Source: Scatophagus argus (taxonomy: Eukaryota; Chordata; Actinopteri; Scatophagidae). Taken from it: a DNA stretch of 64,000 nt. Location: positions 21,419,001 through 21,483,000 of the forward strand of contig NC_058498.1 of NCBI RefSeq assembly GCF_020382885.2, given 5' to 3'. Below are positions 15,201 to 42,213 of the stretch, in pieces (position 1 is the first letter of the stretch; every line of letters starts with the position of its first letter). The notes under the pieces were generated by a model that made no database searches, had not been told where the DNA came from, and was given only the letters and a program-made list of their open reading frames with translations. A program made the position numbers and the translations under genes.

Positions 15201-16369
15201 TGTTAACACGCTGGTAAAGTGTTAGCATGCTAACATTTGCTAATTAGCACTAAAGTACATCTAAAACTAATGGAAATGCCAGTAATTTTGGTCTGTCACA
15301 TCCTAAGGTACTAATTTCGTGGCAATTCTCTCAGAGCTGTTTTCGTCTTGACCAGCATGTTTGACTGACTGGCTGAAAAAACGACAGGCAACCAGCTGAT
15401 ATTGCCATCCCTAGAGCCATGGCACTAGCCACCAAACAGTTATGACAAAATATGTTCAAATATACATGTTTTAAAATAGATGACAACTAAGCAGTTGCAG
15501 CAGTAACAGTGGCTGTGTACCAGTGGTTTCTCTATAAATTAGAAAAGTCTTTTATGTACACATGTGCTGTACTACTAACAGTTCTACAATTATAATAATT
15601 CATAGAACAAAAATAATATTAACTTGTGTCAAACTGTCAACCCACCTGCACAGACAACTTCTTATCCTCATTTGGCAGGATTCTGTATGTGTACACACAG
15701 TTCTGGTATCTGTGGTTAAAATAAATGAATGCAAATGACTGTCACAGGAATATGACATGTATGCAGGAAAATAAACAGGCTGGTTGATAGATTCAGTGTG
15801 TTCAGCAGGCACTTGGAAAAGACTGGACAGTATTTTAAATGAAGGTTGACGCATGAAAAATTATATGAGTAGCAGAGGGCAAAGGGTGTTGCTTTTTGGC
15901 AGCACGATATGCAAATAAAGGGGAACTAGCTTTGCATTGCAATGCGTATGAGCGTATGAAAAATGTGATGCGATACGTAGTTAACACAACAGGATGAATT
16001 ATTTTAAATGTGCCCAAATGATGAGGTTTTTTTTTTAACTTAATGCTAAAAAGATTCAGTATAACAGCACTGTCATGTCAGTTTTTACACCTTCAGCTGA
16101 GCTCACAGTTCATTTTGCATGCCATTAAGGGTTTTTTGAGCAAGGACCAAAGGGCCATTGTCCACTTTATGAAACCACATCAAAATAAACTACAAGTGTG
16201 ATAATTAGAAACAAGTAATGTCTACTTACAAAACACAGAGGGCATACGCTCCCTGTATAGACTCACTGGCCCGAATAAGGAAGCTTCCATCTCTTGCTGC
16301 TTTGGAAAGAAGATCCTCGGCTTTGGATCGAGTTATATTACCATGACACCAAGGCTGATAACTTGGCAT
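6268..16369 (-). CDS. inpp5d: SHIP1, SH2-containing inositol polyphosphate 5-phosphatase D
   Basis: SHIP1 removes the 5-phosphate from PI(3,4,5)P3 at the plasma membrane of blood cells and so restrains PI3K signalling. Twenty-seven coding exons: 16230-16369, 15646-15709, 13820-13955, 13577-13721, 13297-13437, 13119-13209, 12956-13033, 12733-12810, 12508-12631, 11946-12052, 11376-11478, 11087-11283, 10765-10882, 10582-10678, 9767-9905, 9476-9584, 9211-9299, 8712-8793, 8223-8312, 8015-8125, 7834-7913, 7664-7751, 7434-7580, 7280-7343, 6990-7193, 6390-6838, 6268-6308. They total 3,312 nt, 1,103 residues (human about 1,189). Domains: SH2 ([15 protein letters not shown], residues 5-110), 5-phosphatase (GTWNMGN near 400, [24 protein letters not shown]), a C2-like region, then a proline-rich tail with NPNY (about 885) and NPLY (about 954). 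No SAM domain follows, which separates it from SHIP2/INPPL1. The first in-frame ATG is 16369; upstream residues in this frame start only at a TTG. Confidence 0.96.
10945..11050. repeat. retroposon-like tail ending in a (TATTC)n microsatellite
   Basis: In an inpp5d intron, TGCAAATGGCAATAAACTC runs directly into about a dozen TATTC units (10992-11050), some of them imperfect. A short conserved tail followed by a simple repeat is typical of fish LINE or SINE 3' ends. The neighbouring exons at 10765-10882 and 11087-11283 are intact. Confidence 0.6.
15098..15430. repeat. GCTAA-rich dispersed repeat, copy 1
   Basis: Within a long inpp5d intron, the segment holds TTTGAGCTAAATGCTAA, GTTAGCATGCTAACATTTGC, TAATTAGCACTAAAGTAC and TAATGGAAATGCC. 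This is the pattern of a teleost dispersed repeat known to me from memory. Shorter related copies are at 17845-17990 and 49850-49930. No protein is encoded. Confidence 0.6.
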
Positions 16370-18837
16370 CCTGTTTCTCACCCAAGAATCTGAGCTCAAG
16401 ACTTTTGCATCTGTTCTCAAACTATATTCCAGCAAACCAAGGTAGACTCAGTTCTTTACAGCTATTTTCATCTTTTCATGTTGCGTACTTTTAAGTCCTG
16501 TTTCACTTGTTCATCCCCTGCCTCCGCAAGCTGTAAAAAGGAGGCAGCTACTACCTCTGTTCTGAACTTCCTCATTTGAGAAGTTGAAAGAGGAGGGCCC
16601 TGGTGCCTCTGCTCTGACTGTTATATGACATATCCACGTAGCTGTAAATGGAAATACAAACTTTTGCTTGCTGAGAATATATCTTTGTCACATTACTGAA
16701 TGATTAACCAGAATTCTCTCTTTAGTTTCCAGAGACCTCTTTGTTGACCTCCTTGTCCATGAAAAATAAGGAAGTCATTTATAAAAAAAAAAAAACTTGA
16801 AGAAATGAAAAGAGAACCAACAAAAAAAAGAGCAAATATGATGATTCTTACTGGTTTCTCTTAAATCTAATGTGAGTTAGGAGAGCTAGGTGTTTTCTAA
16901 AACATAGTCTATACATTCAGGAAATACAGTTTTAGAAGGTTTGCCATGCTCATGTGATGGACAGGAAGTCTTGCAAAAATAAGAGGAGGAAAATAAGCTG
17001 CTCAGAAACCACAACATGGGTCACATGATGCAAAAAGAGAACTACACAGTGACAAGTCACTGCCGCCTCAGTGGTTTCTGTCCTGCACTTGAAATAGGTT
17101 TCCCACTTTCACAGAGAGCATGTCAAAGTCTCAGACATACAGTGATGATGATTTCACGTCCTCACGACCTCATGCAGAGAAGACGCGAAATCATACTTTT
17201 GCTTTCAAGTGACAACAACTGCAGTATTTAGTTACATATACTTTATATACAACCACATTTAAAAAGCAGATGTTACTGATACAAAAAAGAAATAAAGAAC
17301 GACATGTGAGTCAGCTGTAAGACATAAGCAAGCTGGTGGATCATCCATAGTGTTTACAAGAGAGCTTTGTTTTTCAAACTGAACATTTCCTCTGAAGAGT
17401 GACCTTGTAACAACACTCAGAAGTGTATTATTTGCAACTTGAAGTCACAATGAACATTTATAACTCATATCTTAGTAATCAATATGAATCATTTCTGTCT
17501 CAAACATCGCTTACTTTGCAGACAGCATTTAGATGAACTGACTCACAGTAAAACAAGATTTATAGTTTGTCATGCAGAAGTGCGGTATCATAAAAATTTG
17601 GACAAACCAGTAAATGCATAGCAGAGGAGATGGATAATGATAAAGATACAGTACATATATGTACAATGTACAGTATATGCATGTACAATGAAGATTTGTC
17701 TAGCACATGCAAAATAAACATGGTACTGGTGTCTTTCAGCAATTTCAAAAAAGTCAGGGAAGATACATTTTTAAGTGCATTTAATACACATTATATTAAA
17801 AACAAATACTCATAGCAGCTCTGCAAGGCTGTACTCGGGTGTGGAGGTGCTTTGAGCTAAATGCTAACACCAGTATAATGTTTAGCAGGTAATTTACGAT
17901 GTTCAAGATCTGAGACAGGGTGCTGTCATGCTAGCATTTGCTGAAGTTGATGGGAATTGCAACCAGGGCAATGCTGCAACATAGCTAAAAACCTTAGGTA
18001 ACCTAAAAAAATAATATTAAACATTAACTACTGAGTATTTAACACATTTGGTATAAGATACAAATGGTAACAGTAAATATACATCAAAAGTTGACAATGT
18101 ACATATTTGATTATTTGGTGTTTGACACACAAATCATTTTGCCACATGAGCATGAAGCTTGTTTAGCTCTTTAGTTCTGATATCTTTAGCACTCAAAGAT
18201 GTCCAAGAGTTCTCGAGTTCTTTATGCACGCTTCCATAAGCTGTGGCCAATCAGATTTTGCTCATGCAAATAACCTTCACTGCAAGCAAAATCAATAGTG
18301 GTTCTACAGTGGAATTTTGGAAGCATGAAGATGGAAACAAACAAAACATAAAAGGAGATGCCAAGAAGGAATTGTCACTAACAGACAAAGTTTTTTGCCT
18401 TATGAGAGTATGACAATAACCAAAAAGGACCATTTTGCTTTTAAACAGCTTTTGATCAACACTCATTCCAATTCATTACATATGGAATATGTAAACCTGG
18501 ATATGGAATATGGAATACCCAGAATGTCCCTGTCCAAGTAATGTGAGTTCACAAAAAAGTTCTGTCCAGATCCTCATGTGGTGTTTGGAGTCCTTACACC
18601 CTCGTGGACCTACACAGATGATGTCAGTAAAAACCTGTCAGGGTTCAGAGAATAAGGTGTAGAGTAGAAACTGTGACTGGGTCTGAAAATAAAGATAGGC
18701 AGCTACAGTTTCAACCACATTGTGGACTGAGCCTCCAGTCAGACAAAGGCAACAGTTAAATGAGAGATAATTTTTTGTGTGTAGTGAAATGCATCTATAT
18801 CAAAGAGTGCTCCAGACCAAGTTCAAATATCTCTTCC
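16370..18837. other. inpp5d 5' flank and gpr17 3' region
   Basis: No coding exon was recognised. The right part should hold the gpr17 3' untranslated region; the nearest minus-strand ATTAAA-type signal is at 17780-17785, a weak candidate. A GCTAA-family repeat fragment lies at 17845-17990. Sequence just above 16369 should contain the inpp5d promoter, but no clear core element was seen. Confidence 0.5.
17845..17990. repeat. GCTAA-rich dispersed repeat, copy 2 (fragment)
   Basis: TTTGAGCTAAATGCTAACAC, TAATGTTTAGCAGGTAATTT, CATGCTAGCATTTGCTGAAG and TTGATGGGAATTGC are in the same order as in the copy at 15098-15430. Confidence 0.55.
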
Positions 18838-19857
18838 TCAAAACTCAGATTTGGCACTCACAGAGCTCTCATGTGTCCCCTTTAACTCTCCACTGGTGGC
18901 TCCTGACATACTGGCCTTATCTTTGCAAAACAATTGCATTAGAGTGCTTCGGAATTTCTCTGCCCCAAACAGGTAGATCAGCGGGTCCATAGCACCGTTC
19001 AGACAGGTGAGGAAGGAAGTGAGGCGGTTGGCCAAGCTAAGGCCTCTGCGTGTCTGGCAGGAGACATCAGGATGGCTGTAGCCCAGGATGAAAGTGGCCC
19101 TGCTCACATGATAAGGCAGGAAACAGACTACATAGATAAGCATGACCAGACCGATGGTGCGCAGGGCCTTCAGCTTGAGAGCCGGCTCTAACCTGGAACC
19201 TTGATGCAGGCTGTGAATGATGAGCAGGTAACAGGACAGGGTGGTGAGGAAAGGTGGGGTGAAGGCTACAGCAAGTGAGATCAGTGCCTTGCGAGAGGCC
19301 TTCTCTCTATACAGCTGCAAACACACCGTGACACCGTCCACCTCTGCAGTTTGGTGGGTGACTAGCAGTGGTGCCATGGACACAGTAACCAGGGCCCACA
19401 GAGAGAAGCTGATGATGTGAGCATAGCGAACACGACGAACCTTGAGTGACCTCACAGCGTGAACCACAGCCAGGTAGCGATCCCCCGCCACACAGGCCAG
19501 AAAGTACAGGCTGGCATACATGTTCACATAAAACAAAAAGCCAGCCAATCTGCAAGGCACCTCGCCAAAAGGCCAGTGGCCTCCAGTGAGGTGGTAGGTG
19601 GCCCTCAGTGGGAGGATGATCACATACGACAAGTCTGCCACAGCCAGGTGAATCAAGAAGATGTTGGCTGGAGAGGAAGAGCCACGCTGGTGAGAGAAGA
19701 TCCAGAGAGCCAGACTGTTACCATTCAGTGCCAGAAAGAAAACCAGGATGTAGAAGCATCCAAACAGGGTGTTCTCAACTGTTGTATCTGCCAGCCCACA
19801 GCTCTCTGATGACTGATTGGATAACAGGGAGGGCAGATCCATTGTAGCAGACTCCAT
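18838..19857 (-). CDS. gpr17: GPR17, class A G-protein-coupled receptor
   Basis: GPR17 is a class A receptor related to P2Y and cysteinyl-leukotriene receptors. In mammals it marks oligodendrocyte precursors and delays their maturation. The coding region is a single exon of 339 residues, matching the human short form. Seven hydrophobic segments are visible. Marks include a likely N-glycosylation site NQS at residue 14, TM1 LNGNSLALW, TM2 LAVADLS, WPFGEVPCRLAGFLFY before TM3, DRY at 126-128 (human has DRF), VCLQLYREKAS in loop 2, VCFLPYHVSR in TM6 and DPLIY in TM7. The tail ends ESSVSAKSEF, close to human ESSLSAKSEL. The start at 19857 is the first ATG: a splice acceptor (CTCCTCAG) ends at 19866 and the exon begins CCACCAAAATGG, so in-frame residues upstream are intronic. 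It lies between inpp5d and myo7b on the same strand. In mammals the gene sits beside or within LIMS2; no LIMS gene was seen here. Confidence 0.96.
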   Translation of the reverse strand: MESATMDLPSLLSNQSSESCGLADTTVENTLFGCFYILVFFLALNGNSLALWIFSHQRGSSSPANIFLIHLAVADLSYVIILPLRATYHLTGGHWPFGEVPCRLAGFLFYVNMYASLYFLACVAGDRYLAVVHAVRSLKVRRVRYAHIISFSLWALVTVSMAPLLVTHQTAEVDGVTVCLQLYREKASRKALISLAVAFTPPFLTTLSCYLLIIHSLHQGSRLEPALKLKALRTIGLVMLIYVVCFLPYHVSRATFILGYSHPDVSCQTRRGLSLANRLTSFLTCLNGAMDPLIYLFGAEKFRSTLMQLFCKDKASMSGATSGELKGTHESSVSAKSEF

Positions 19858-20120
19858 TTTGGTGGCTGAGGAGACAGAGGAATGGTTAGAAATTGATACT
19901 AAAAGCAATTCTTAGGCACAAGTAGAAACATTTCTCCTCTCTGGAATGTTTTTGATCTTAGTAAGTCGTGTTTGCAGATTCAGGTTTTATCTCACTTCTT
20001 TGAATTTGACATGAATCTTCAAATAAGTGCCTTTGATTTCTAAAATAGTTCATTGTTAGTATTCAGACAGCAAACTACCTCAGTAACAGGAAAGCAGCCC
20101 AGCCCCTGGCCACACCACTC

Positions 20121-24285: not shown

Positions 24286-27200
24286 TCAAATGTTGAAGCG
24301 TGGGTTCCTGTTTTGCCCTGCCCTCCTCTCTCTGAGGTACATGTTGACATAGGAGGTTATAAGATCGTCCATCTTGTAACCCTTTATAAAAGAAGACACA
24401 GAGGTTAAAAAAAAGGAAATGAAAGGGAGAAACTTTTACAGACTGGACGTTTATCACTTACAGCTAACGTGTCTAATGATAGATCTTACCAGTGATGTTT
24501 CACACAGGAATTTGCTCCCCTTGACTAAACTGCCAATAGTCATGTGAAAGTAGGTGCTTCCACTGCACCAGTTTGCGATGCGGTTGAATGGGTGATTTGC
24601 TAACACATCCTTTGAAGAAGAAAAGAAATGTTAATGTTATAAAAAAAGAAGGAAGTTATGAAGGGACTGCTGTTAATGACGATTTTGTTCTTTTCACCTT
24701 GGTTTTAGGGTGAATGATGGTGAGGCCTTGCTTGCTGATGGCTATTCGAACAATATCTGGGAAATTTGGCTCTGACGTTTGCTGAAAAGAAAGTTATGAA
24801 GGCAAATGAGAAAACTTTTCTTCACTCTGGTCATGACTATTTGCTTTCTGCAGATGTGGTGACAGAGGGTGTGAGGTACTGAGACAGAAATCATCAGATA
24901 AACAAGCCACCCACCCAACCAAATGGACTACACAGAGCAAGATAAAACAGCTGCTGTGCTGCACTCACTGCAGCCCTTACCTTCACTTCAAAGAACGCAC
25001 AGCCAAACGTCGGCCAGCGGTAAACCATCTTCAGAAAGGCCACCTTAGCTTCTTCAGCAGTCATATTAGCTTGTTTGTTATAAGAGGCAATAATACTCTG
25101 AAAGTGACAAATAGATGCATATCACAGTATCATACACACACATACATGCTTTTTAGAAATATTTGAACTGCTTTTGCTCAAGTTAATGATTTTCCAAGAC
25201 CCCCACAGCCTCCAGGCAATATTCTCCAAGATTGGGCTCACAAGTATGGCATAATGGTGATATTGTTCCTAATGGCAAGAAAGCCCATGAAGTCTACAGC
25301 AAATGTTAGACTGATCTTGCTAAAAAGTGACCGTTTATCCAAAGCCTGATTCTGTTTCTCATTTCAGGACGCTTTGTAACAAAACAGAATGTGATAACTT
25401 GCTAATCCTCTTTGACATAATGAGAGTGATACAAAGACAGCGTATTTAATGTCTCAGTTTGTCGACTTCATTGATTTTTGTCAATGTACGCTTATATTCA
25501 TAAATAAGCATACATTTATATTTATAATAATCTTATAAATACACGCTGCACTTATACATTTCAAACAAGTTGTGATAGAAGGAACAGAAGACCGGGAAAG
25601 TTGTGTACTGCTCAAAAAGCATCAGTTTGGAACATTCCATAGGTAATCAGGCTCATTGGTAACAGATGATCGGATCATCATTAGGCATGAAAGGGGCATC
25701 CTCGAAATGGGGTCGGAGCCTGTGTCGCAGACACAAGAAGGACACTGAAAAGCACTGATCATTGTTGGTTTTAGTCTTTTTATGTTGACCGCAGGAAAAG
25801 TGTAGTATAAGACCATCCTTATCCTTTAAGCTAAACAATAGCTAAAGGAACTCTCGATATGTAATCAGTGAAAAGAAAGTGCTTCATACCTTCTTCCACT
25901 CATTTTCAGACATGACCTTAAGTTGGTCTGTGGGCACCAGCTCTTTCAGAATCTTTGGAATCAGGGCAAGCTGGCTCTTGTCATTGCTGAACTTAATCCT
26001 GAAGAACAGAGCCGCAATGCTGACCATTTCCTCTTTGGTGCAAATATGATAACCTCTCAGGTACTTCGGTGCCTCCTAGAAGACAGAAGAGATATTTTAT
26101 AAAGTTGGCTATTGCAGGAATTGAATTTGCAACAGATCTGGTCCTAGTTTGACCTTCAAACTCAGTCACTACTGACCACAGTCTTCATTATGAGACAGTG
26201 TTTTAATGTGTAACATTCCTTCCTTAGGCCTTGCAGTCTGGGATGAGGGTTGATACTGCTCATGTGTCAGTCAGGATTATTTTTAATGGAAAGTTTTGGC
26301 TTACATCGCATCATATCATATGGAAGGACTAATCAGCTTGGAGAATGTGATGGTGGCTGAGCGGCATCATTCAAATGTACCTGAGGGAAATGGAAGATAA
26401 GATCGGCCTCTGTGTCTCTGCCAGGGATCACATTGAACCACAGCTTCCTCATGAAGAACACAAGGTAGGGCATGCTGACTGGCCCACCTGCAGGTTACAC
26501 ACACAGACACACACAAGGTACATATAAAGAACAATCAAATGTAAGAAGGCACTATAATTAGGTAAGTTGAAGAAAGTTTTTTACCTTCTTTGATCCTGTT
26601 GGCTTTCTTGGACCAGTCAGTTATTTGTCTCAGACTATCAAAGAAGTAGTCTGTGTCGTTCAAACCGAGAACCTGAGATCACAATCACAGACTTTTTTTA
26701 ACCGGTCTAGGTCTGTGATAGAGGGCTGAGAACTCATTAAGTGAAGCAAATTGTAAAATTTTAGATCACAACATAATGAGAAATCTCATATAAACCTTGT
26801 CATGTGTTTTGACAAAGATGCTGAAGCCGTCTGCAGAAGTCAGATTGAGCTTGTTGGCAATGTTCTGGATGAGATCCTTGATCCTGGTGCTTGTCGTGAC
26901 CTCGAATATCTGAAGAGGGAGGAGAGATGAATCACTGCAGGAACATTTGATCTGGTTTGTTTCTCTTACTTTAAACATACAGGAGCTCTGTATTCTTACC
27001 TCATCTGTGTCATTGGGGAAGTGGATTTTGTGGAATATTTGGGTACTGTTTAGTTGGATGGCATCTACCTCAACCTGGTGTGGTGGGAGATTCCTGGGAT
27101 CCATCCTGCACAAAGACAGCAAATGCTTCGTCATATGATATATATTTTTTTAACTTAATAATTGGGACACAGAGCCACAGATTCAGGGCAGATAAAGAAA

Positions 27201-28703
27201 AGGACAACCACTACTCCATCACTAAAACTGTAAAGCAAAATGCCATGCACCATGCACCAACTGTGCTGATCATGAAATATGTCTCTTGGCACAGTTGTCA
27301 TTGTGTTAGTTATAATGAATGCAAGTCAAACGTATTTACAGAGGAGGATATGCAAATGCAGACTGTGATCAAGTCACTGTGAATCTGATGCAACACATGT
27401 TTGAAGAGTTCAGCGACAGCATAGCTGCAAGGAAGTCCTGCCTTGTAAACAGCTCAACGTGCCCTCAATAGTCCGTGTACCTCAGTTAGTAGATGCATTT
27501 TTAGACAGCCTTAACCTCATGAGAGTTTTAAAAGACACGACAGCACAGCTCGTCATTTCCTTTTCTAACTACAGTCGTGTCACATTGTATCATGGTGACC
27601 AGAGTGTTGCAACTGCCGTGTGCTATTCTACAAGCAACATTAGCTGTTCTATAAATCAACAATGTCACTGTTTGCACGCATGCCGGGAAACACTGTGGTG
27701 TGTGCCAGTAACATACAACGAGGGCACACATGGCTAACCTCAGCGAGCTCTGCAACCGCTGCAGACAGTCAGAGGCGAGGGGTTCTCTGCGGCGCGACTC
27801 CAGAAATCGCTGAGCGTGCCTCAGAAGAGCCTGGCTCGGGGGAAACAAGCCGCAGCAGAGCCACAGCAGCTGCCAGCCGTGCTCCAAGCTGATCCTAGGT
27901 GACCATGCAACAGAAAAAAATATACATATGAGACACATAAAGCATATGAGGAAAAGGAGCTTGGTTTGTATTGTTAGTCAAACTCATAACTGCACACTGA
28001 AACATGGGAGAGTATTTTCATTTCAGTTCCACTTCTGAGAAAATGTCAAATTTCTCTCTCTCTCTCTCTCTCGTTTTCTCTCTGTCTCTCTCGCTCTCTT
28101 GTTTGTACTTCCTAGTGCCTAAACAACAAATACTACTCCAGGAAATAAAAGTTCAAGTTACTTAAATTCACCAGTCAGGCTTTCATTTAGCTTAAAATCG
28201 GAGTTATATATTTGCTGCAGCTATGAATTATTTTCATTACTGATTTATTTATCAAATATTTTCCTGAATAATCAATTCATCATTTGACCTATTGAATATA
28301 ATAAAGTTCTTTTTTCAGTATTTGTCTGTTCAACAGTCCAATTATATTGACTCTATGATATAAAACAAAAAAAAGCAGAAAATCTTCTTTCTGGAGAGGC
28401 TGTTACCAGAGAATATTGGCAAATTTTAAGACAAAATGCCTATAAAAGCAACAGAAACTGGCCTATAGCTTTGACAAGTGACATTTTAAACCATTCTTTT
28501 TCATGGAACAAGTCTTCTACTCTGAGATAATGAAATAAGGCAGGCATACCTGTTGTTATTGTTGGTCATCTGCTTCATGATCTGGCAATAGATCTCATCC
28601 CTGAGTGCCTCATGTTCAGTGGCGGGGCTGAAGATCTGGTTGGTGAGCTCCAGAGGACTCACCATCTGCTTGGTGGGATAATCCCCCATATATTTCAGGA
28701 TCG
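24286..28703 (-). other. myo7b: myo7b exons 37-47: second MyTH4 (3' half) and second FERM
   Basis: Exons: 28550-28703, 27739-27894, 27000-27105, 26796-26909, 26585-26672, 26381-26487, 25890-26075, 24981-25097, 24698-24781, 24490-24609, 24286-24381. They encode [72 protein letters not shown] and the final CETSLGYKMDDL. The second MyTH4-FERM unit is the cargo and harmonin/USH1C-binding tail in the mammalian protein. The phase runs on across every junction to the TGA at 24286-24288. Confidence 0.9.
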
Positions 28704-31700
28704 GTGCACAACAGTCAAGGAGGAACAACGATCATGGTTTCATAAATTTGAAAAAGAAAAGCTGGTGATTCTACAGATAGAACTATGTGGTTACTGTTTG
28801 CTTAATCTCAGACAGCTTGTTTAGTTGGTTTGTTAGTTTAGCATATTAGTTAACGTAGCTTGACTTTATTAATTAATTAACTAACTAAAACTTTGAAACA
28901 GATAAATAGCTTTAGCTTTTATCGCCAAAAAGTGTAAAACACAGGAACAAATGCTGCATTTTCAGTAACTCTGGTGTATGGAGGATATCGGTGAAGGCCA
29001 GGCAGGCTTTGTGGTTGAGCTCTGAGTTGCCAACGAGTTTCTTGTGGAGGGGCTGTCTGATTGGCTCTCTGGAGCTGACCCACAGGCTCTCCGGAGCAGC
29101 ATTCCTGGACATCACCTGACGGTTCACATCCTTAATGGGCTGCCTGTAGGATCAAGCAAAAAAAAAAAAAAAATTAAAAAGGGTGGGTTTTGTTGCCGTT
29201 AGTACTGGTTCGGCGTGCATTAATCCAGCTGATGATACCTGAAGTATTCCAAGGAGTATTCCTTTAGAGTGGCAGGAGCTAATCTCTGCATTGTTCCCGT
29301 TTCTTTCTGGTTTGCCTGTATGATGTTCTTCCTCTGGTTTGGAGACAAGTTGAGAAGGCTCTGAAAGAGAACATGCCATACGTTAAACCCACCACAGATC
29401 CTGGACATGATAGCTCATCTGAGAAGGATGTGTCAGCGACTTCTCCATACCATGACCTCATTGGTGGGTTTGCTGAGCGTTGGCACGATCGAGATGGCAT
29501 CAGTGGGGACGGCTCCTACTTGTCTCGTGCGCTCATTTTCTCCTTTTATCCAACCACGTTCCTGGGAAAACTCATTATCTTTGATTATTATAATGAGCTC
29601 TCCTTTCTTGAAGCTGAGGAATGTGGGGTCATCTGTGGAGGGACGGCAGAGAACTCAGAGACCTAAAAGATCATTCAGCTGCGACAATATAAGAAAGAAA
29701 AGTCAGTCCTCTGACCTTGTCTGTTGGCTTCCCTCAGGGCCACAGCATACTGAGATCTCTCCGTCAGTCCACTGAGGAACATTGTTACCAGCTCTGCCAT
29801 GTCCTCAGCCATGCTTCCACTCAGAGTGAAGTCTCCTTTCAGTGTCAGCAGGCTCACCACCTGGCCAGATGCTTTACCCTCCCTACACGGGCATCAAAGG
29901 ATAACCATGACACACATAACACCGCGCTGTTTTAGTAGAACTGACTCTTGCTAAACTGGCTCACTACCCTGCTTCCTCCAGCTCTGATTCTGTCTCTACC
30001 TAATCGTGTTGACTCCAGTGACTTCAGGGAAGGAGAGCTCCAGCAGTCTCCTCTCTCTCTCATCCAGGAAGGTGATTCCAGTCCAGTTTATGGCCACGAT
30101 GAATTTGCTCTTTGGCAGTGGAGGACCTAAAAAAATAAAGAACAATCAATTATGACTCATGGTTTAGGAATATACCCACTGTGTCAGTCAGAGCACATGC
30201 TTAGTGGAAACTGGTTCTTCCCAAGATAAACAGCAGCAAATCTGAAATCCAAGAATCCAAGAAAAAATGTCGCTCCTGGCCCACTTTTTCCACATGCTCG
30301 AGTCTTAACCCCAGTGGAATAATGAATCTATAAATAGTCTTGTATATTCCATTCTGACATAGATACAAATGCATAATTAAAAGTGTTGGTCTCTATATTC
30401 CCACAGAAAGTGTAGAAATATAAAAAAATCTCTATGGCATCCCTTCTAGCTGATCTGATTTTTGAATACTCCAGAAATATTTTGTCATCATTGGTCATCA
30501 ATCACAAATAGAGAGCGTTTGCGCTGTTCTGGCAAATGTTTTATTTTCAACATTTGAGGGAGAAAAATAATTTGGATGGTCAGTCTGATCTAAATGTTGT
30601 ATGTGTGTACATTTTTATGACATAGCTGCAGTATATTAGTAAATATACTCCGGATGTCATTCTGCATGACACTCAGGGCCTCTTCCATTCAGTTTGAAGT
30701 AATCAGTTCCTGTAAAGGTACAAATGCTTAGTTTGTCCATCAGTGCTGTCAGACCAAGAAACTAAAAGGTTTATTTCTAATGATAGAGTGCCTTCAGTCG
30801 TTGTATCTTTCCAAGTAATTTGTTGTTTCTAATTCTGATCTGAATAATCAGCTTACATAATCATCCACGGATGTCAAAAGCCTAATAAATAGTCATAACA
30901 CTGGCATTAAGCTTGCTCAGTGCATCTAAATTAATCCAGCTATTATCATTTGTCAAACTATTAAAGATTTTGGAGACATAAAACAGGGAGGCTTGCTGTA
31001 TTTTTTTGACACCGACCTGACACTTTGACAGCTTCAAAGAACCTAGAGAAGAATATTGGCCACTTCTCTCGGGTGTAGTTGACCATCTCTGCCTTCACTG
31101 AATCTTCCTTTTGCCTTGAACTCAAATATGCACCCTGGTTTAAGAAAAATAGACAGAAATATTAGAGCTACTCAAGGCCATTGGAGAACTTTGTCCAGTT
31201 CTCTTTGTGTTGCACATTCTGATGTGTGGTGTAACAAACCTGAGCATGAGCGGTACTGATCATTTGCATCCACTTGGCTTCTGACTTGGCCTCCAGCAGA
31301 GAGTTGCTGATGCAGTCCTGAACAGCTTTTTTCACATGTTCTGGACTACTGTCTGAGCCATGTTGGATGTATAAATGTTTTGCAGCAAGCTGAACAAAGT
31401 CGTCCTCCTGTCAAAGTGAAATGCAGGAAGAACGTTGTATTTATATCTGAGAATACGGCAAGAATTTTGCAAGACAGTTATCCAAATATAAGCCCACCCT
31501 TTCATACTGGTACTCTCCGAACTTCAGACCATGGATGATCTGTTTGTAGATGAGGTCTGTGCTGATGTTGTCCTCTTTGCAGTCATGCCAGGGGGTGAAG
31601 ATCTCCTTGCGGAAGAAGAGACGCCAAGGAGCGTGCTGTTCCTGTCCTCCTCTCCTCTTTACTTCCTGCTCACATTGGGAAATGGCGTCCATCACATGCT

Positions 31701-34700
31701 CACGGCCGCTGCCCAGAGCCCACACCTAAAGGACAGATCAACACTTGAAGTTATGATATAGATATGTATCAGCATCATGTATATGTTTCCTATAAATAAC
31801 ATGTAATAAATATAAATGACTAAAACAGGCTGCATACCTTTTCATACAGGGCCACGTAGAGGGAAAAGCCAAAGGTGTCTTTGAGTTTGACTTTGTTAGA
31901 GATGAGAAGGCAGATCTCTTTGGAGGTAGATGCTGAGTCAACGGGCAGGTTCATAGTGCGTCCATCCATCAGCGTCACAGAGACAATCATGGGCTTTTTT
32001 GTCTTGGTTGCCTATCACAGCAGAAAAAAAGATCATGTTATTGAAGCACAAATGAGAACTAATGTGTCACAGGGTTAGATCACTAAAATCCTTCTCACTT
32101 ACTACTGATGTGTTGGTATGCTGGTGGTATGAAACCTTACAGACCGCTTGGGTTTAATCTGCCTATGACTGGACTTAGTGTCTTTGAGATTTCTGCTGCA
32201 CCTTCAGTACAATTAATGTCAACAAAATTTTGTTTGTGGAACTCCCAGCATAGCAAATGAAGAAAATTCAACAATTATTTCTTTTCCAAAAAATAATACT
32301 AATCTCATTGTTCACAGTTTTCAATAGAACTATTTTCTACCAAACAGGAAAACAGTATGAAAACCACTCAGAGTGTGGTCTTTGGATTACTGAGATGCTG
32401 CTGAGACTGATCTCAGAGAAAGATGTCTCAAATGTGGACAAATGAAACCAAAACAGTTTGGGAAGATACCACTAGACACCTAGTGGGTTTTTTCCATACA
32501 CATGTATGAAATTCAAATATTTGCCGGTAAATTTTCAGTCTCCATACCTGCAGCTCCAACCAGGCTGGAGGCTCCCCACGCACTCCATTCATTCCTGTGC
32601 GTCGCAGTCTTTCTGCACAGTAGGAGGCATAGCCTCCTGGAGCGAAACGGATGAAACTTTGCAGGTACTGCCAAGAAAACAGATAAGAAAAACACAAACA
32701 TCACAGCATGCAGCAAACTGCACACACAGCACAGCACACTGAGAACGAAGCAGCCAGTACACCTGTTTTACTTACCTTTAAAAAGTGCTCACTAGGTGGG
32801 AAAATGCCGAGACAGAGGGACAACAGGATCCAGCCGCGAAAGAAGCTGTTGCGATTGTTGTTATCCTGAAGCTGCTTGCAGATTTGACAGTAAATCTCAT
32901 CCCTGGACAGGCAACAGACAAAAAAAGGTATTAGCAGAGAATAAAAAAGATACTTAGATGTGTGTGATTTATAAATCAAGCCTCGTTTACCGAAGGTCGC
33001 GTCTGACAATGGCATAACCCACAATGATGTGGAGCTTTTCAAGAGAGGTCAGTGGTCGGTCAAGAGTGGGCCCTTCTCCAATCATGACATCCCTGTCCTC
33101 CTCAACAGTCTGCAGGGTGGGAGGCTTAGACCCTTCAGTCGGATCATCTGACTGCGAGGAAAAAACACATGACATTTCCATCAATATCTCTCTCAGTAAA
33201 ATGACAGAGAACTTCAGGGCAGCGCCAAGTGAAAATATTTCTACCTCACCTCCTCCATTATGATTGAGGGTTTCCTGAAGCCTGAAGTGGATTTGGGGAT
33301 GCCATTTTCTTGCACAGCAGTTGTTTTTCTGTTTCTGGACAGTAGGTCAGTGAATGTGGATCCCTTCCTTGTCCGAGCACTCTCCTCTGGCACAGTGTAC
33401 ACCTTTGGGTTTTGAGTTGTCTCACTGGGCATAGCAGAAGCCTTCCTGTTTCTTGTCAGAAGATCTGTGAACATGGAGCTCTTTCTCTTTTGCGTTGGCT
33501 GCTCGGGTACTGTGGTAGGCTTTGTCTCTTTATTGTTCCTTAGCACCCTCTAAAACATTCAGATTAGATTTTAAAATCTATGATGAATTAGTGTCACTGT
33601 ATTTTCTCAGATAGTGACTGCTTGGATATATTTCCTCATATTTTAGTATGAAGCCTACTTGTTTCCTCCATGTTTAATGTTAGGGTTATCCTTTTTTTTT
33701 TTTTTTTTTTTTACTGACACTGAATACAATTTGGCTGCAACATGAACACACATACATCTGGAGTGACTGAAATGCAATGTAAACACTTAAGTAATGTGGA
33801 TCAAAGTGTTAATTTAGCATCTTTATGTTGTGGAAATTAAACATTAAAGTAACAAAAATGTACATTACGCCTACCTGGCATATACATTATAAATCAGACA
33901 CCAGGACATTATCCAACAGGTCTTTATTCGTTCATGTCAACCACACACCTGGCTATTATTAGAGACCCGACTTTTATTTGAGGAAATATGGCAACCTACA
34001 CAGTTAGGTCAAATTCAAAATTCCTAAACTCCTTGCTTTGTGAGGATATTTACCTGATCCAGGCCAACCATGTGGCTGAGACGTCTGTCATTTCTGGATA
34101 TCAGGTCCTGTGGCAGAAGACGTTCCTGTCTCGAGGTTCCCTGGACCTGCTTCTTGGGCTCAGGGAGATCTCCCATGAACCTCAGGATGATCCACCACAC
34201 TGTCAGTGAAGCCTGGTGATAACACAACAGAAACACCATGGTAAATTAACGACATAAACAAAGATATTACTCGTATTTGAACAACTGAAATGAAATAAAG
34301 TGGTTCAAGAGAAGCACCAAGACATCTCCTTCATCTTCGTGGTAAAGCAGGGGCTGTCGAAGCCTCTGGCGGATGTGCGTGGGGGTGGCTGCACCCTGGA
34401 AGTACATGGAGGCAAACTTGGAGAAGGTGTACTCATCCAGTTCATCATCATCTTCTTTGAGAAGATCTTCCTCCATGGGGAAGTCGTCAATATCTATCTC
34501 CTCGGTAATCATCCTTCTCCCCTCAAAATTCTGAAAACAAATATGCAGCGACATGTAGCAACTGACTGAAAAAGGATCACCATCTATATCAAATAGTTTG
34601 CTTGCCAAACCTCAAATCCCACAGGTGCTTGTCCCTCCTGTCCTCCAACTATAACGGGGAGGAAGTCAAAGATGCTGTCCACCATCTCCTGGTCTGTGAT

Positions 34701-37700
34701 GGATTCAGACTTAGCTTTGTCCTCCATCTCTTTCTTCTGCTTCAGCACTTCCTCCAAGTATCTCTGTTTCTCCATAATCGCCCTCTGTTCTTCTTCTCTC
34801 TGTTTAGCAGAGAGGTACATCTAAAAGAACACAACAAAAAAAACACAAAAGAAGATTATGAAAAAGGATCATCTTGAAACGCAGCTGTTTGCTGAATATC
34901 TTTTACTACCTAACTAACCAAGCAACACAGATTTAATGACAGATTTGTCATAATACAAACGGGGCTTGGTGCAATGACAATTAAATAAATCGTAAACTTT
35001 AGAATGAGTTTTCTGCTACTGGTTACAGAGTGGTAGCATTAAAACAGGCATAAAGTCTGGCCTGTGACACACAGTTCTCTACCACTGGGATTCCTGAACA
35101 AGAGGATATGCGAAAAAATTACTAAGGGGCTTAAAAAAGTTTAAAACGTGCACATTTTGCTGAGGAGGAAAATAACCAGTACATTTATGATCACAATAAC
35201 CAGTAAGCCTGCAGCTATAACAGCTAACAAAGTACATGCCTCTAACCAGTCAGTTGTAACTACACGTGTTGCCCCTGTTCGTGCCTTAAAATAAATTAGC
35301 AGACTAGCAAATGAGTCAAAAACATCTTATCTAAAAGTACAAAGCTAAAAGTATTGGACAAATGCTCGAAGTAACTGATAAATAGTTGCAATGCTAGGTA
35401 CTAGTGGTACATAGGATCCCTTCTGTAACCCCTGTGCTACTTGAGCAAGTACTACTAAGTACTATTAAGTACTATTTGAGTTCATCTGATAGGGATGTGA
35501 GTGTACTTAGAGAGAAATGGTTGAGAACCATTACTGTATCAGATAAAATTAGCCTGTAGAGATTCTTTTAATTGTCACCATGGTTCTCATTATTCTTTAA
35601 GTTGAACTTACATCTCTTTTCATCTTTTCGACAGCTTTTCTTGCCAGCACACCCCTGGTCTGTGCCTGCAGGAGGATCACAGCGTTTCTCTTGCGCTTCC
35701 ACTCCTTCCTGGCCAGATAACCCCTGGCTTGGGTCTGCAGCACAATGGCTGCCTCCCGCTTCTTCTTATACTGGAAGTGGAGCTGGCGAGAACGAACCTG
35801 CGCCTGCAGCCTCGCAAAACCGTGCTGGACCTGGAATTAGAACATAATTGAAGGGGTGTATTGTATGTCATGCTGGTATTTTTGGTAAAAACTGATTTAT
35901 CAAAAAGGGACTCACCATTTTGTACAGCTTTCGTCCTTTGTGTCCTCTCCAGTATTTCTGAATAACAACAGCGCCTGCCTTTTTCTTCAGGAACTGTTTC
36001 CTGTGGAGGGCATAATCATACAGACATGCAGTTGCAAGTCAGTTGAACAATAGTAGTAATCATCATGATCACAATCAAAATGATGATTTTACAGCTTTCT
36101 GTTCCATACCTGTGTTTGTAGCCTCTCAGGACCTTCTGGATTATAAGTGCTTTCACATTTAGCTCCTTCATTCGCTCCACTTCAAGCGTTGTGTCATGGC
36201 AATCCTGAGAGAAAACAGCAGCAAGTTCTGTTTTGTTGATGGAAATATTCACATCTAATTGATACATTACCGAAAGCCTAATTCAGAGAATTAGCCAGTT
36301 AACCAAAGTATGCATTTTAATGTGGAATTACATGGCTACATTTAACTTCATTCAATTCAACAAGAAATTGTGGACTTTTTTTGGTAGCCTAAAGGTCAGC
36401 CTCGAGCTAAATAGTGAATAGCATCCATAAGACACTTGAACTTAATAATAATAATAATAATAATTCATTATCAGTCACATCTCGTGATGCATTAGAAAGC
36501 ATTATCTGTGTTTGTGAGTGTAAACGGGAGGCACTATGAACACATTATAATACAATATGAATGTCCCCATAATGTATTAGAGATGTTGTTGTTACAGAAT
36601 GTGTTACTGAATTTTCAATTTGATTTTCTGAAAACTAAAAATTAAATCTAGTTAAAATTACTATTGCAGAAAAGTTCTTTAAACCCCACAAATTCAGATA
36701 GATGATCTTCAAAATTTAATTTCAACAGTACAAATTCTGTGGTTTTAAAATTTTAAAAATTAGGCATTCATCAGTTGGTAAATTAGTTATTCAATTGCCT
36801 ATAGCATTCAAATTATTTTGCCCATTGTATGGTCCCATACATAACCATCTCACTAACAACAGACTACATCAAAATGTAAGGCAGCACCTTGAGGAATATC
36901 TTTGTCTTGCCCGTCTTCCAGTCTTCCTTTTCCCCAAGCATAGTTTCACAAATGCTTTCACAGCATTTCTGTTTACTTTCCTGTCAGAGCAAAAATGATC
37001 ATCATAAAAACACAGCAAAAGATGATGAGAAAAGTTGTGAGGATATCATTTACAGTGAACACCTTAAACTTACTGTTTTGGGATCGCAGAGGTAAGTTTT
37101 CAGAAGGACGCGGTAGCGACCTAGAAACTCGTCGAATGTGTAGCGCACAGGGTATCCAGCTTTCCTGATCTTGATGGTCTCCATCATACCAGAGTAACGG
37201 AGCTGACGCATGCACAGCTCTCTGTCAAACAGCTTAAACACAGAGAGGAGTGAACTCCATTTAATTTTAGTACAGATGCAAAGAAGTTCATTTAGGTCGA
37301 ATGAATGCAGCCTCTTTCCTCACCATGGGCTTCTTGAAGTCATTGGGTTTAATGCAGCGTACGAAATAGGGCTGACACGCCGTCAGTGTTTTCATCAGAG
37401 AGTCCAGAGACTGACGGAACTGTCCAGTCAGAGTTGGTACACGCTTCTTGCCATCAGACGTTTGCTGTCAGGAACAAACAAATGTCACATAACGTAAGTA
37501 ATTCTATAGAATAATGCTATTTTTATTTTCATGATGATGTCTGATGCCGAAGCTAAAAACTGCACTGACCCTGAGGCTGTTGTTCGCAGAGGAGATGACC
37601 ATTCTGGGGTTGACGCTGTTCTTCATCGTACCGGAGGACAAGTCATTATGAAACGTCTGCTTGAGGAGTGTATTCGTGGAGGTCTCAACCAGTTGGATCA

Positions 37701-40700
37701 GATCTGAGCTCAGGGCGTCACGGTTTTTCTCAAGAAAACCTCAAAACCAGAGAGACACAATAATGATATCACAGAGAACTTGTACATTTTTTTTGGTTTT
37801 TTTTTGCTTTTGCTTTTAAAATCTTTAAAAGTACCTTTTGAATCATAGTGAACCACTCCAGCAAAATGTTGGATTCCAAACTGTGTCTCATAGTTGTTCT
37901 TGGGGGGAATATAGATGCCGCCTTTCCCATGCACCTGATTCATTTTTTCGAGCATGGTGGTATCTGTTCCCTGCCAATAAACAAAAGAAGAGAGTTAAAA
38001 CCAGCTTTGCTTTGTCACAACAGACTTTTGTGAGGTACAAGGAGGATACAGACCTTGGGGAAGTTGCTCTCTTCATCAATTAGTGCCAGCATGTTCAGCG
38101 GTTTGATGGCCAGTACATTCAGGGTGAGCTGGTTGTCTTGGTAGTCAATGTGCTTCCAAACAATGTTTTCACGTGCATACTCCTCTTGCTCCAGCTTGAA
38201 AACATGCCTGACAAAGAACTGCTGCAACTGCTCATTGGCAAAGTTGATGCACAGCTGTTCAAAGCTGCAACAGTTCAACAAATCCCACAGCACCGGGGGA
38301 AAGACAAAATGGATTTTAGTCAAATTAACAATGTTCTTTTTGCAGCAATAAACCTCTAATGTCGTGACAGCTGCTGTGAACGCCAACCTGTTTTTCTTGA
38401 AATTCTCAAAGCCAAAGATGTCAAGCAAGCCTATCGACTGCTGGACCTCCTCTGAATCCTCAGGTTGCTTGTAAATGGCCGAGTTGATTTTGTCCACCAC
38501 CCAAAGAAAAAGTCTTCCATAAATAGCCTGGAAATAATACACCAATTATACATATACATGCTAATTATTACACACTGCGTGAGCACAACAACACTGAAGA
38601 TTTAACTTTTTTTTAACTTTTGACATTGGACCTCCAAGCTAGGGTAAGTGATACATTATTATGTTATGCTATGCAAGTATTATCTCTGCTCCCAGCCTAT
38701 GTATAGCCATATTTTACTATTGTTATCTGTTTGGTGCTCAGAAGACAAATCCAGAAGAGATCTAAACCCTTCATTTCAATTGAAAGGTCAGCTATACCAG
38801 TAGTTTAGCACATGAACACTCCAAACAAACAAACTAAACGCAAACAAACAAACAGAGTCTCTGATGAGGACTCAGCGTGTACAGAGATATCTTGCTTTGT
38901 ATATGACCATGAAGATGATGGTTCCTGGGCTTTTATACACTATATAGACAAAAGTATCAGGGTACCTCACCATTAAACCAACAGGGAGTGACACTAAATT
39001 CTAAATACATAGACATAAATATGGAGCTGGTACCCACAGGGCATGTTTAGTATATTAAAATAAGCTGAAGTTATATCCGATATAAATGTCTGTCTTTGAA
39101 AAACTCAGATTAAGTGTGACTGATGTTACCTTGACAAAGGCGTCCCTGCCGTCCACAGCCTGGGCAGACGTCAGAGCTTTGGTCACACTCTCTCTGGCTG
39201 TCATGAAGGAGCGCTGAGTCAGGCTCTTCTCCAGCTCATTGGGGGCCACCTGAAGAAATGGGACAAACACATTCAGACAAGGTCATCTCAGCTCATTTTA
39301 TGTGCAGTTGAAATAAAAAATTATACATACCTCCAACAGTTGGCTGGCCATGTTGAAATGGGATGATGTGACCATCTCACAGGCCTCTAGGTTATTTACA
39401 ATAGTGCCTAAAAATTATAGAAGAAAAATATGTTCAGGGACTCAAAAGGTGCAGTTATTTTGTACATCTGATAATAGCATCCACAGTACAGGCAGTCGAT
39501 TGTATGATGCCGAGCTTACTCTCAAAGTTCACATTGCCCAGGTGAAGTATGGCAGCGAGCAGTTTGGAGATTTCCCAGGAGTCATTGTCTGTGAACGTGA
39601 GGATCTTCAGAGCTGAACGGAAGTGTGCGTATTCCTTAACATCATCACGTCCTTCACAGCTGGTGCAGCCACCCTGGTGACATGATCACGTGCTTTAAAA
39701 CTATGCATTTTTTTCAGAAACGATTTATTCAAAGTGACAAAAATGTCAGTACCATGGTCAGATAGTTGTACTCAGCAGCGTTCCCAAGGGAGAGGATCTT
39801 TTTCTGCTCAGCCGGCATGCCCATCAGCATGTGGTAAAAGATGTGGTAGTTTCTTTCTTCGGGAGCCTGCACATCAAAGTACATGTTATTTACCGCAAGA
39901 AAATTTGACTCGTACTAACTACTCATGCAAATCATCATGCAAACAATCTTCCCACCTGACGACAAACCCGGGACTTCTCCAGCAGGTATTGCTCAATGCG
40001 GGCCCCTTCAATGGCTCCACTCTTGGTGAAGTTGATGTCAATGTATTTCCCAAAACGACTGGAGTTATCGTTTCGAACTGTTTTGGCATTGCCAAAGGCT
40101 GAGAAGAAAATATATATCTTATCAAAGCAGATCAAGTGAAGAAGGAGGTTCTGCTGGTTACAAAGACTGTCTCATATCTTCATGTTGGCGTTTTGCTCAT
40201 ACCCTCCAAGATGGGGTTTGCTTCAAGAATCTGCTGCTCTATCCAGGAGTGCTGGCCACTCACTGCAGCCAGGAACTGCAGCATAAGCTTGGTGTTCTCA
40301 GTTTTTCCTGCTCCTGACTCTCCACTGATGGAGAAAACCAAGAAGAAAATACACCAATTAATGTCATGTAAACATACATTTTCCACTCAATTCTTTTTTG
40401 ACTGTTTCTCACCTAACCTTCTGTTTTAATCCACTGGCGCTCTGGTTTTAGATCAGGGCACAGTACCATCTCAGCTGCCTTTTTGGTAATGAGTCATATT
40501 ATGACAAGATTATATAAAATTGAACAGCATGCTTTTCTTTGATATGGTAGATCTAATTTTTTTCTTCCCGTCTTTCCGCACCAATTTTGATTGCTTGCTC
40601 AGCCCAGATTAGTTTCACTTGAGCCTAGTTACCTCCTCTCTACATAATGTCACCTAGTCTTTATCTTCATTCCAGTTTGTTATGTTCCTCAGTGATACTT

Positions 40701-42213
40701 GTATACTTGCCTTCTTGTTTTTTTGAGTTTTGCTTGCTTTGTGCCCTTTGCTCATTACATTTGATTTGTTCGCCTGTGCTGTCTGCCAGTGTGTGTGCTG
40801 AACCCCTGCTTCTAGATTAAAGACTGTGAATTTTCCTGAAGCCTACTTTCTGAGTGGTGCCATTGGATCTTGTTTTCCGTGGTTTGCCAGTCTTAACTTC
40901 AGTGAGTTTTCCCTGGTTTTCTTCAGGGAAAGGTTTTAATCAATGAATTACATGACAGTCTGAATAACAATCTGGGATCAGCCCCAGTGTCCTGTAATTA
41001 AGAGAAAAGCGGACCTGATGACACAGCACTGGTTCTTTCGGTTGCGGCGCATGTTGAAAAAGCAGTTGTCTGCTATGGCAAAGACGTGCGGTGGCATTTC
41101 ACCCAGTCGTCGGTCTGTGTACATCTGCACTTGTTCAATGGTGTAGATGGGCAGCAGCTGGTAAGGGTTGACTGCAACCAGAATGGAGCCTGTGTATGTC
41201 TTAAAACAGAGAGGGATGTTACCCATCACACAGAGGCACAACTGACAAATGTGTATGTGTATAAACAAGCTATTATAGTGAAAGCACATGTCAAGCAAGT
41301 GACCCCAAAGACCCCTGTTTGGTCACGACTGCGGTGCGTGAGATACATGTTCTGATTCACTGGATTTAAAAATTTCATGGTCATATTATAATCATGAAAA
41401 GCCTGTGTTAAGTGCTGTGGTTTATAGTGTGTATAGTACATCAAAAACAAGGGACTATTTTGCCCCCCAGCATCTAGCAGCAGTATTCATATACAACAAA
41501 ATGGCCTGATTCATAATTGAACAAACACTGTTGTGCTCTGATGCCCTGACATAGAAACACTGGGATGTTCTCTTTAAACAGAGACTCATTCGTCTCTATG
41601 GAGACAAACAACACTGCGATAAACTAAGGGGCAAAGTCTGAGATAGAAAGCCATTTACACCAGGGCAAGACACAGACGAGTACCGTAAGTGTTTCCACAG
41701 CAGGTTATGGACCTCATAAAACTATTTGGTTCAGAGTGAATAGAAACCTACATAGATGACGCCTTCTTTGTGTCGCACCAGGAGGTTCCTGAGGAGCCCT
41801 GCCTCATTGAGATCACCCAGCCTTATCATGTCATCCACACCCTTCACAGAGGTGGGGTGCATGGGCCGGATGCTGCCCTCCATCTTCTTACTGATCTTGT
41901 GTTCCTGTATGCATGTTACGGAAGAGTTGACATTATACAGAAGGCTGACACACGTTTATAAAGCCGAAATCTTAGTTGAGTTTGTACCTTTCCCTCATCG
42001 TCGATCAGTTGAAGCTGTCCAGTTTTTGTCACTCTGACTTCTGCCCCAATCGGCAGCCCGCCACCAGAGTCCACCCACACGAAATCCCCCTAGACAGGCA
42101 AACTCAAACTTGTAACATACCGAAATGTCACAGCGAACAAGCCTAATAGTCTATTTGAGAAAAAACTTAGTTTGGATTACAGAAGTACCACTCACCTTAC
42201 TCAAATGCAGCAT
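24286..42213 (-). CDS. myo7b: unconventional myosin-VIIb, complete
   Basis: MYO7B is an actin-based motor that binds the protocadherin-harmonin complex at tips of intestinal and kidney microvilli. Forty-seven coding exons were joined, 6,696 nt, 2,231 residues (human MYO7B about 2,116; MYO7A about 2,215). The order is: motor head (residues 1 to about 745), five IQ motifs, a short charged helix, MyTH4-FERM, SH3, MyTH4-FERM. Exon coordinates are given under the five block entries. All introns have GT-AG ends except one with AT-AC ends at 28704-28988. The name MYO7B rather than MYO7A rests mainly on its neighbours sap130 and gpr17, which lie near human MYO7B on 2q14.3; residue comparison alone does not separate the paralogues clearly. 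Start: ATG at 42213 in exon MLHLSK; another ATG 15 bases upstream (42228) is out of frame and soon stops. The C-terminus ([14 protein letters not shown], then RNPRFNI) is shorter than in mammals. Confidence 0.93.
28057..28101. repeat. (TC)n low-complexity tract
   Basis: Uninterrupted then imperfect TC units in a myo7b intron. Confidence 0.9.
28704..28988 (-). other. myo7b: U12-type AT-AC intron of myo7b
   Basis: No GT-AG pair joins exons 36 and 37 in frame. An AT-AC pair does: the intron starts ATATCCTCC right after ACCG (28989) and ends TTGTGCAC before CGATCCTG (28703). The join restores [12 protein letters not shown], matching the [12 protein letters not shown]-type sequence of MYO7A. The donor matches the minor-spliceosome consensus ATATCCTT except at the last base. 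A branch-site match TCCTTGACT lies at 28713-28721, its A 11 bases before the intron end, where U12 introns place it. Confidence 0.85.
28989..30126 (-). other. myo7b: myo7b exons 32-36: SH3 region and start of second MyTH4
   Basis: Exons: 30000-30126, 29716-29882, 29451-29632, 29239-29360, 28989-29143. They encode the end of the first FERM ([22 protein letters not shown]), the SH3 fold ([42 protein letters not shown]) and the start of MyTH4-2 ([13 protein letters not shown]). The last exon ends in the AT-AC intron. Confidence 0.9.
29158..29176. repeat. poly-A tract
   Basis: A near-uninterrupted A run just upstream, in gene direction, of exon 28989-29143; on the minus strand it is a T tract close to that exon's acceptor. 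Confidence 0.85.
33250..33549 (-). other. myo7b: myo7b exon 24 with tandem duplicated motif
   Basis: A 300-nt, in-phase exon (residues about 1074-1173) lies inside the first MyTH4 region, where MYO7A has a variable lysine-rich linker. It contains two copies of a unit of about 38-40 residues: [19 protein letters not shown] then TRNRKASA, and [19 protein letters not shown] then SRNRKTTA. Both are basic, with RKSS/RKGST serines resembling basophilic-kinase sites. The splice sites are normal (TTTTAG acceptor, GTGAGG donor). Removing the exon would keep the frame. Confidence 0.85.
33690..33712. repeat. poly-T tract
   Basis: A run of more than 20 T in the intron above exon 33250-33549. Confidence 0.9.
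35612..36204 (-). other. myo7b: myo7b exons 18-20: IQ-motif neck
   Basis: Exons: 36110-36204, 35916-36000, 35612-35830. Five IQ-like motifs bind calmodulin-type light chains: [63 protein letters not shown] and [17 protein letters not shown]. Five IQ motifs is the usual number for class VII myosins. Confidence 0.9.
36442..36464. repeat. (AAT)n microsatellite
   Basis: About seven AAT units in a myo7b intron. Confidence 0.85.
38932..39047. repeat. dispersed repeat fragment (ACACTATATAGACAAAAGTA type)
   Basis: In a myo7b intron, ACACTATATAGACAAAAGTA is followed by CTAAATACATAGACATAAAT and ATGGAGCTGGTACCC. This order of words is familiar from many teleost genomes (from memory). The class, probably a DNA transposon remnant, was not determined. 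Confidence 0.5.
40560..40930. repeat. possible retroelement-derived sequence in myo7b intron 4
   Basis: T/C/G-biased sequence with TTTTGCTTGCTTTGTGCCC, GATTAAAGACTGTGAATTTT and CCTACTTTCTGAGTGGTGCC, similar in style to fish retroelement tails. The resemblance is by eye only, and no reading frame is present. Confidence 0.3.

Follow-up and report, generated by a model that had tools for sequence, protein, structure and literature searches.

The DNA analysed here (the window, a stretch of 64,000 nucleotides on contig C6) carries on its minus strand a class VII myosin gene in which one pair of coding exons resists joining by a conventional GT-AG intron. The original prediction had placed an AT-AC intron of the minor spliceosome at this junction, and the question is whether the intron indeed belongs to this class. 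By spliced alignment and junction enumeration, the intron occupies 28704..28988 (minus strand, 285 nt, phase 1) in the part of the gene encoding the C-terminal MyTH4 domain. Read from 28988 to 28704, it starts with ATATCCTCC (5' splice site, 28980..28988, minus strand) and ends with TCCTTGACTGTTGTGCAC, its last four bases being GCAC; the AC of the 3' splice site (GTGCAC/CG, the slash marking the exon border) lies at 28704..28705 on the same strand. A putative branch site, TCCTTGAC, is located at 28714..28721 (minus strand), its branch A at 28715 lying 11 nt before the intron end. Donor, GCAC end and branch A are thus present in the sequence as they had been described.

The upstream coding exon (28989..29143, minus strand, 155 nt), placed by spliced alignment and by homology to the PDB chains 5mv9 and 5xbf, is preceded by the AG acceptor CCTACAG and ends with ...ACLAFT plus a G. 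The downstream coding exon (28550..28703, minus strand, 154 nt), likewise placed by spliced alignment, is followed by a GT donor (CAG/GTATGCCTG). At the junction ...CTTCACCG would be joined to CGATCCTGAAA, which in the protein would link FT(G) to (CG)ILKYMGDYP. The joined exons align without gaps to the myosin VIIa chain 5mv9 and the myosin VIIb chain 5xbf (ACQIFVAILRYMGDYPSR), both listed there without species, and a Pfam scan identified a MyTH4 domain (PF00784). With E values of 6.5e-26 to 4.6e-25, chains of myosin VIIa or VIIb took the top four places among 12 PDB matches, in agreement with the claim that the exons join as expected for class VII myosins.

The myosin gene itself (24341..42089, minus strand, ends approximate), which is myo7b-like and carries PF00784 in the joined exons, was modelled by spliced alignment. 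The template was an approximate human MYO7B sequence, and 1152 of 2143 alignment columns are identical to it. The model is uncertain at the gene ends, in the tail and in the stretch that leads from the IQ motifs to the first MyTH4 domain. It contains 49 introns, of which 47 are GT-AG, one is GC-AG (in a poorly conserved part) and one is AT-AC. The earlier count of 47 coding exons is near that of the model, the exact number being uncertain together with these parts. Two stretches of the tail, 33465-34150 and 34720-35460, model poorly (a GC-AG pick and a spurious AT-AC pick) and have uncertain exon borders. The AT-AC pick, 35392-34719, appeared in the first unrestricted alignment within non-conserved tail sequence and was taken as spurious: when AT-AC introns were limited to ATATCCT donors, a GT-AG intron took its place and the score hardly changed (5828.23 vs 5828.17 half-bits).

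An 83-residue MyTH4 segment of the window gene shares 46/83 identities with MYO7A and 46/83 with MYO7B and hence does not discriminate between the two. Based on the neighbouring genes and the approximate template, the host gene is likely myo7b. On the minus strand of the window, Pfam domains mark SAP130_C at 45-48 kb and Angiomotin_C at approximately 62.4-62.7 kb, and a rhodopsin-type receptor is encoded in a single open frame at 18841-19911. SAP130 and GPR17 flank human MYO7B, and the receptor is, by synteny, presumably gpr17. An SH2 domain at 16229-16447, also on the minus strand, belongs to a gene that we take to be inpp5d.

U12-type introns begin with ATATCCT (donor consensus approximately ATATCCTT), carry a branch site of the form TTCCTTRAY, some 10-13 nt away from the 3' end of the intron, and lack a U2-type polypyrimidine tract. 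U2-type AT-AC introns have donors resembling ATAAG and no U12 branch site. Introns were compared with consensus strings. The termini of the window intron are AT and AC, at a junction that was set independently by protein homology. Its donor ATATCCTCC agrees at the first seven bases with the consensus ATATCCTT; positions 8 and 9 are C instead of the T that is usual there. The branch site TCCTTGAC is a full match to TCCTTRAC, at a distance within the U12 range. Seventeen bases near the 3' end of the intron have a pyrimidine fraction of 0.71, a value that includes the branch site itself. With its ATATCCT donor and TCCTTGAC, the intron does not have the signals of a U2-type AT-AC intron.

The string ATATCCTY occurs seven times on the minus strand and once on the plus strand of the window, compared to 1.96 per strand expected by simulation; the donor string alone is not rare here. 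The combination of ATATCCTY, TCCTTRAC and a terminal AC within 5 kb was found once in the window, at 28988-28704 (0.14 per strand in simulation). When AG ends were allowed as well, a branch string at 24000 also gave rise to pairings by chance. What makes a chance origin far less likely for the intron at 28988-28704 is that protein homology had already determined the junction at which it lies.

The genome (570.7 Mb, 48 contigs) resembles that of a fish in gene content and size. Searching it at the protein level gave 14 matches and revealed three further genes with both flanking exons, on contigs C13, C5 and C14. All four myo7 genes found have a phase 1 intron at the same site, with AT-AC ends, an ATATCCTY donor and a TCCTTRAC branch site, so that the intron type is conserved in every myo7 gene (4/4) in which both flanking exons were present. 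The donor is ATATCCTC in the window gene and ATATCCTT in the C13, C5 and C14 genes (5' splice sites ATATCCTTC, ATATCCTTC and ATATCCTTT), the three paralogue donors matching the consensus at 8/8 positions and thus more closely than the window donor. The branch sites of the C6, C13, C5 and C14 copies are TCCTTGAC, TCCTTAAC, TCCTTGAC and TCCTTAAC, with the branch A 11, 13, 12 and 12 nt from the intron end, and the next exon is 154 nt long in all four. The introns measure 285, 247, 163 and 633 nt, respectively. Comparison of the four intron interiors by blastn revealed no convincing similarity, the best match between copies being 17 nt (E 0.034). Consequently, it is mainly the splice motifs, and not the whole intron, that have been kept.

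Over the 83-residue segment, the C5 and C14 products are identical to 5mv9 at 64 and 70 positions and to the MYO7B chain 5xbf at 41 and 45, and by this comparison the two genes are MYO7A-like. The same segment leaves MYO7A and MYO7B undiscriminated for C6 (46 and 46) and for C13 (43 and 44); the C13 gene is the closest relative of the window gene (60/83 identical). We infer from the four copies that the splice motifs have been maintained since before the MYO7A/MYO7B split. Since the splice signals at the donor and the branch site, the spacing of the branch A from the intron end, the reading frame and the homology are all in accord, and since three paralogues share the intron, 28988-28704 is almost certainly a typical, conserved U12-type AT-AC intron, with its splicing predicted from sequence. 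The U12-type interpretation first put forward for this junction is thereby supported.

Could the junction instead be that of a GT-AG intron, shifted or accompanied by an extra micro-exon, with the AT-AC ends arising by chance? In favour of this, 47 of the 49 introns of the model are GT-AG, and a GT-AG path through the gene is available when AT-AC introns are forbidden. However, this forced path drops 12 conserved residues and lowers the whole-gene spliced-alignment score from 5828.17 to 5767.16 half-bits, a loss of 61. Junctions were also enumerated with GT-AG, GC-AG, AT-AC, AT-AG or GT-AC ends, an intron of at least 50 nt and both conserved blocks kept in open frame. Seven survived in the window (six AT-AC and one GT-AC, with 0 GT-AG and 0 GC-AG), which bears out the claim that no GT-AG choice keeps the frame, and among them only 28988/28704 gives the homologous length. 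No AG is present in the open stretch upstream of ILKYMGDYP, back to the in-frame stop, so that no AG acceptor can yield this protein segment, even if a micro-exon is added. Both a shifted GT-AG junction and a micro-exon between 28704 and 28988, which had been named as an outcome that would speak against the AT-AC intron, were rejected for the window by the enumeration together with the full spliced alignment. In the three paralogues, longer readings that keep the frame do exist (one GT-AG in C13, three GT-AG and two GC-AG in C5, four GT-AG in C14). Yet each of them lengthens the protein by 11-30 residues, the GT-AG readings by 17-30 residues that are missing from MYO7A and MYO7B, and in 4/4 copies the AT-AC junction alone, among the choices enumerated, leaves the length unchanged. 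Its alignment advantage, measured against the window protein, is 50.3 half-bits in C13 and a modest 14.5 and 10.5 half-bits in C5 and C14. As AT-AC ends and U12 motifs recur in 3/3 other copies, a hidden GT-AG intron is highly improbable. Still less credible is a damaged or mis-assembled copy with a frame broken by chance, for which nothing speaks beyond the missing GT-AG junction: most of the gene can be modelled with GT-AG introns (47/49), and three other contigs show the same arrangement.

An intron with AT-AC ends might also be removed by the major (U2) spliceosome. Several AT-AC introns are U2-type according to PMC6717393, and at the equivalent place three MYO15-like genes of this genome carry GT-AG introns of the U2 type (junctions read by eye). 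In the myo7 genes, on the other hand, the branch site fully matches TCCTTRAC at the U12 distance in 4/4 copies, and the window donor ATATCCT corresponds to the U12 consensus. Removal by the major spliceosome is accordingly as improbable as a hidden GT-AG intron, and the U12-type AT-AC intron is the reading that we adopt.

In U12-type introns, the donor is bound by U11 and then by U6atac, and the branch site by U12. The genome contains full-length matches to a U12 snRNA gene (132 bits, C16) and a U6atac gene (135.2 bits, C3). In the window gene, U11 followed by U6atac would recognise the donor ATATCCTC, U12 would pair with the branch site TCCTTGAC, and removal by the minor spliceosome would bring FT(G) and (CG)ILKYMGDYP together. 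Within the U12 snRNA gene lies GAGTAAGGAAA, able to base-pair with each of the four branch sites at -6.2 to -7.6 kcal/mol, values calculated without a shuffled control. A duplex check of the myo7 donors with U6atac gave no consistent register. Reading through the intron adds 25 residues before a stop, so that the second MyTH4-FERM would be lost; a retained intron would hence truncate the protein ahead of this harmonin-binding part. Taken from sequence, removal by the minor spliceosome in the cell, dependence on U11/U12 and truncation upon failure are all predicted consequences. Second, partial matches were observed for U12 (L054, C4:13790117-13790331, 71.3 bits, 5' part kept) and for U6atac (L056, C2:21234883-21234988, 34.3 bits, middle stem missing), which look like pseudogene copies.

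A literature search covering papers rather than intron database tables (U12DB, IAOD, MIDB) found, among the papers listed, none tying MYO7A or MYO7B to U12-type introns; the human MYO7A and MYO7B introns may well be listed in such databases. Nor did it find a paper with human MYO7A variants near c.5327, which might hit the branch site of this intron. The intron is a further, well-conserved case of a known kind. Like other vertebrate U12-type AT-AC introns, it combines AT-AC ends with an ATATCCTY donor and a TCCTTRAC branch site at a distance of 11-13 nt from the end, is the one minor intron in a gene with many major introns, and is shared by paralogues; there is no difference in kind. The subtype is also ordinary: AT-AC introns account for 22% of zebrafish U12-type introns (PMC7367187) and, among minor introns, for approximately 24% in mouse and 22% in human (PMC6717393). 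Myo10 is likewise a MyTH4-FERM myosin with a minor intron, which is retained in SMA mice (PMC6558932).

Class VII myosins anchor cadherin links via adaptors, Myo7a in hair-cell stereocilia and Myo7b in gut microvilli, and their C-terminal MyTH4-FERM binds harmonin (PMC5493754). If a conserved minor intron sits in that domain in all copies, minor splicing would be required for full-length myosin-7, and a single junction would offer a test for gut or ear defects of mutants in the minor spliceosome.

The same site was inspected in other MyTH4 genes. A MyTH4 search of the genome gave 42 matches at 30 loci, of which 17 were inspected together with two loci from the myo7 protein search; the site alignment covered loci with an MG[DE]-type motif, the MYO10 and PLEKHH genes being left out. 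Three loci with two MyTH4 domains each, which look like MYO15 (L020, L021 and L045, on C21, C16 and C2), have a phase 1 intron that interrupts the same codon as the AT-AC intron of MYO7 does, the fifth one ahead of MG in the MyTH4 domain (read by eye). Site and phase are thus shared with MYO7, whereas the class is not. By eye, the MYO15-like introns have the donors A/GTAAGT, G/GTGAGA and T/GTAGGT and AG ends, and no TCCTTRAC was seen just upstream of their acceptors, signals by which all three are classed as U2-type. The difference suggests an intron-class conversion from U12 to U2 between the MYO7 and MYO15-like genes. Changes of intron class are assumed to go almost exclusively in the direction from minor to major (PMC10639083), and an ancestral U12-type intron that was converted in the MYO15 lineage would therefore be the simpler order; independent gain would be a less simple alternative.

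Tentatively, we consider it possible that the intron predates the split of classes VII and XV, stayed a U12-type AT-AC intron in every MYO7 and switched to the U2-type GT-AG class in MYO15. In that case a complete harmonin-binding tail would require minor splicing in every class VII myosin, that of the deafness gene MYO7A among them. Defects of the minor spliceosome would then have a direct molecular route to defects of hair cells and of the gut brush border. The U12-type intron of MYO7 and its U2-type counterpart in MYO15-like genes, which occupies the same site, also provide a compact case for studies of intron-class conversion. Among the remaining MyTH4 loci, a gene on C3 has no intron at this site, and the first MyTH4 domains of MYO15-like genes at L029 (C16:8143864) and L048 (C2:22885206) have an AG acceptor near, but not exactly at, the site.
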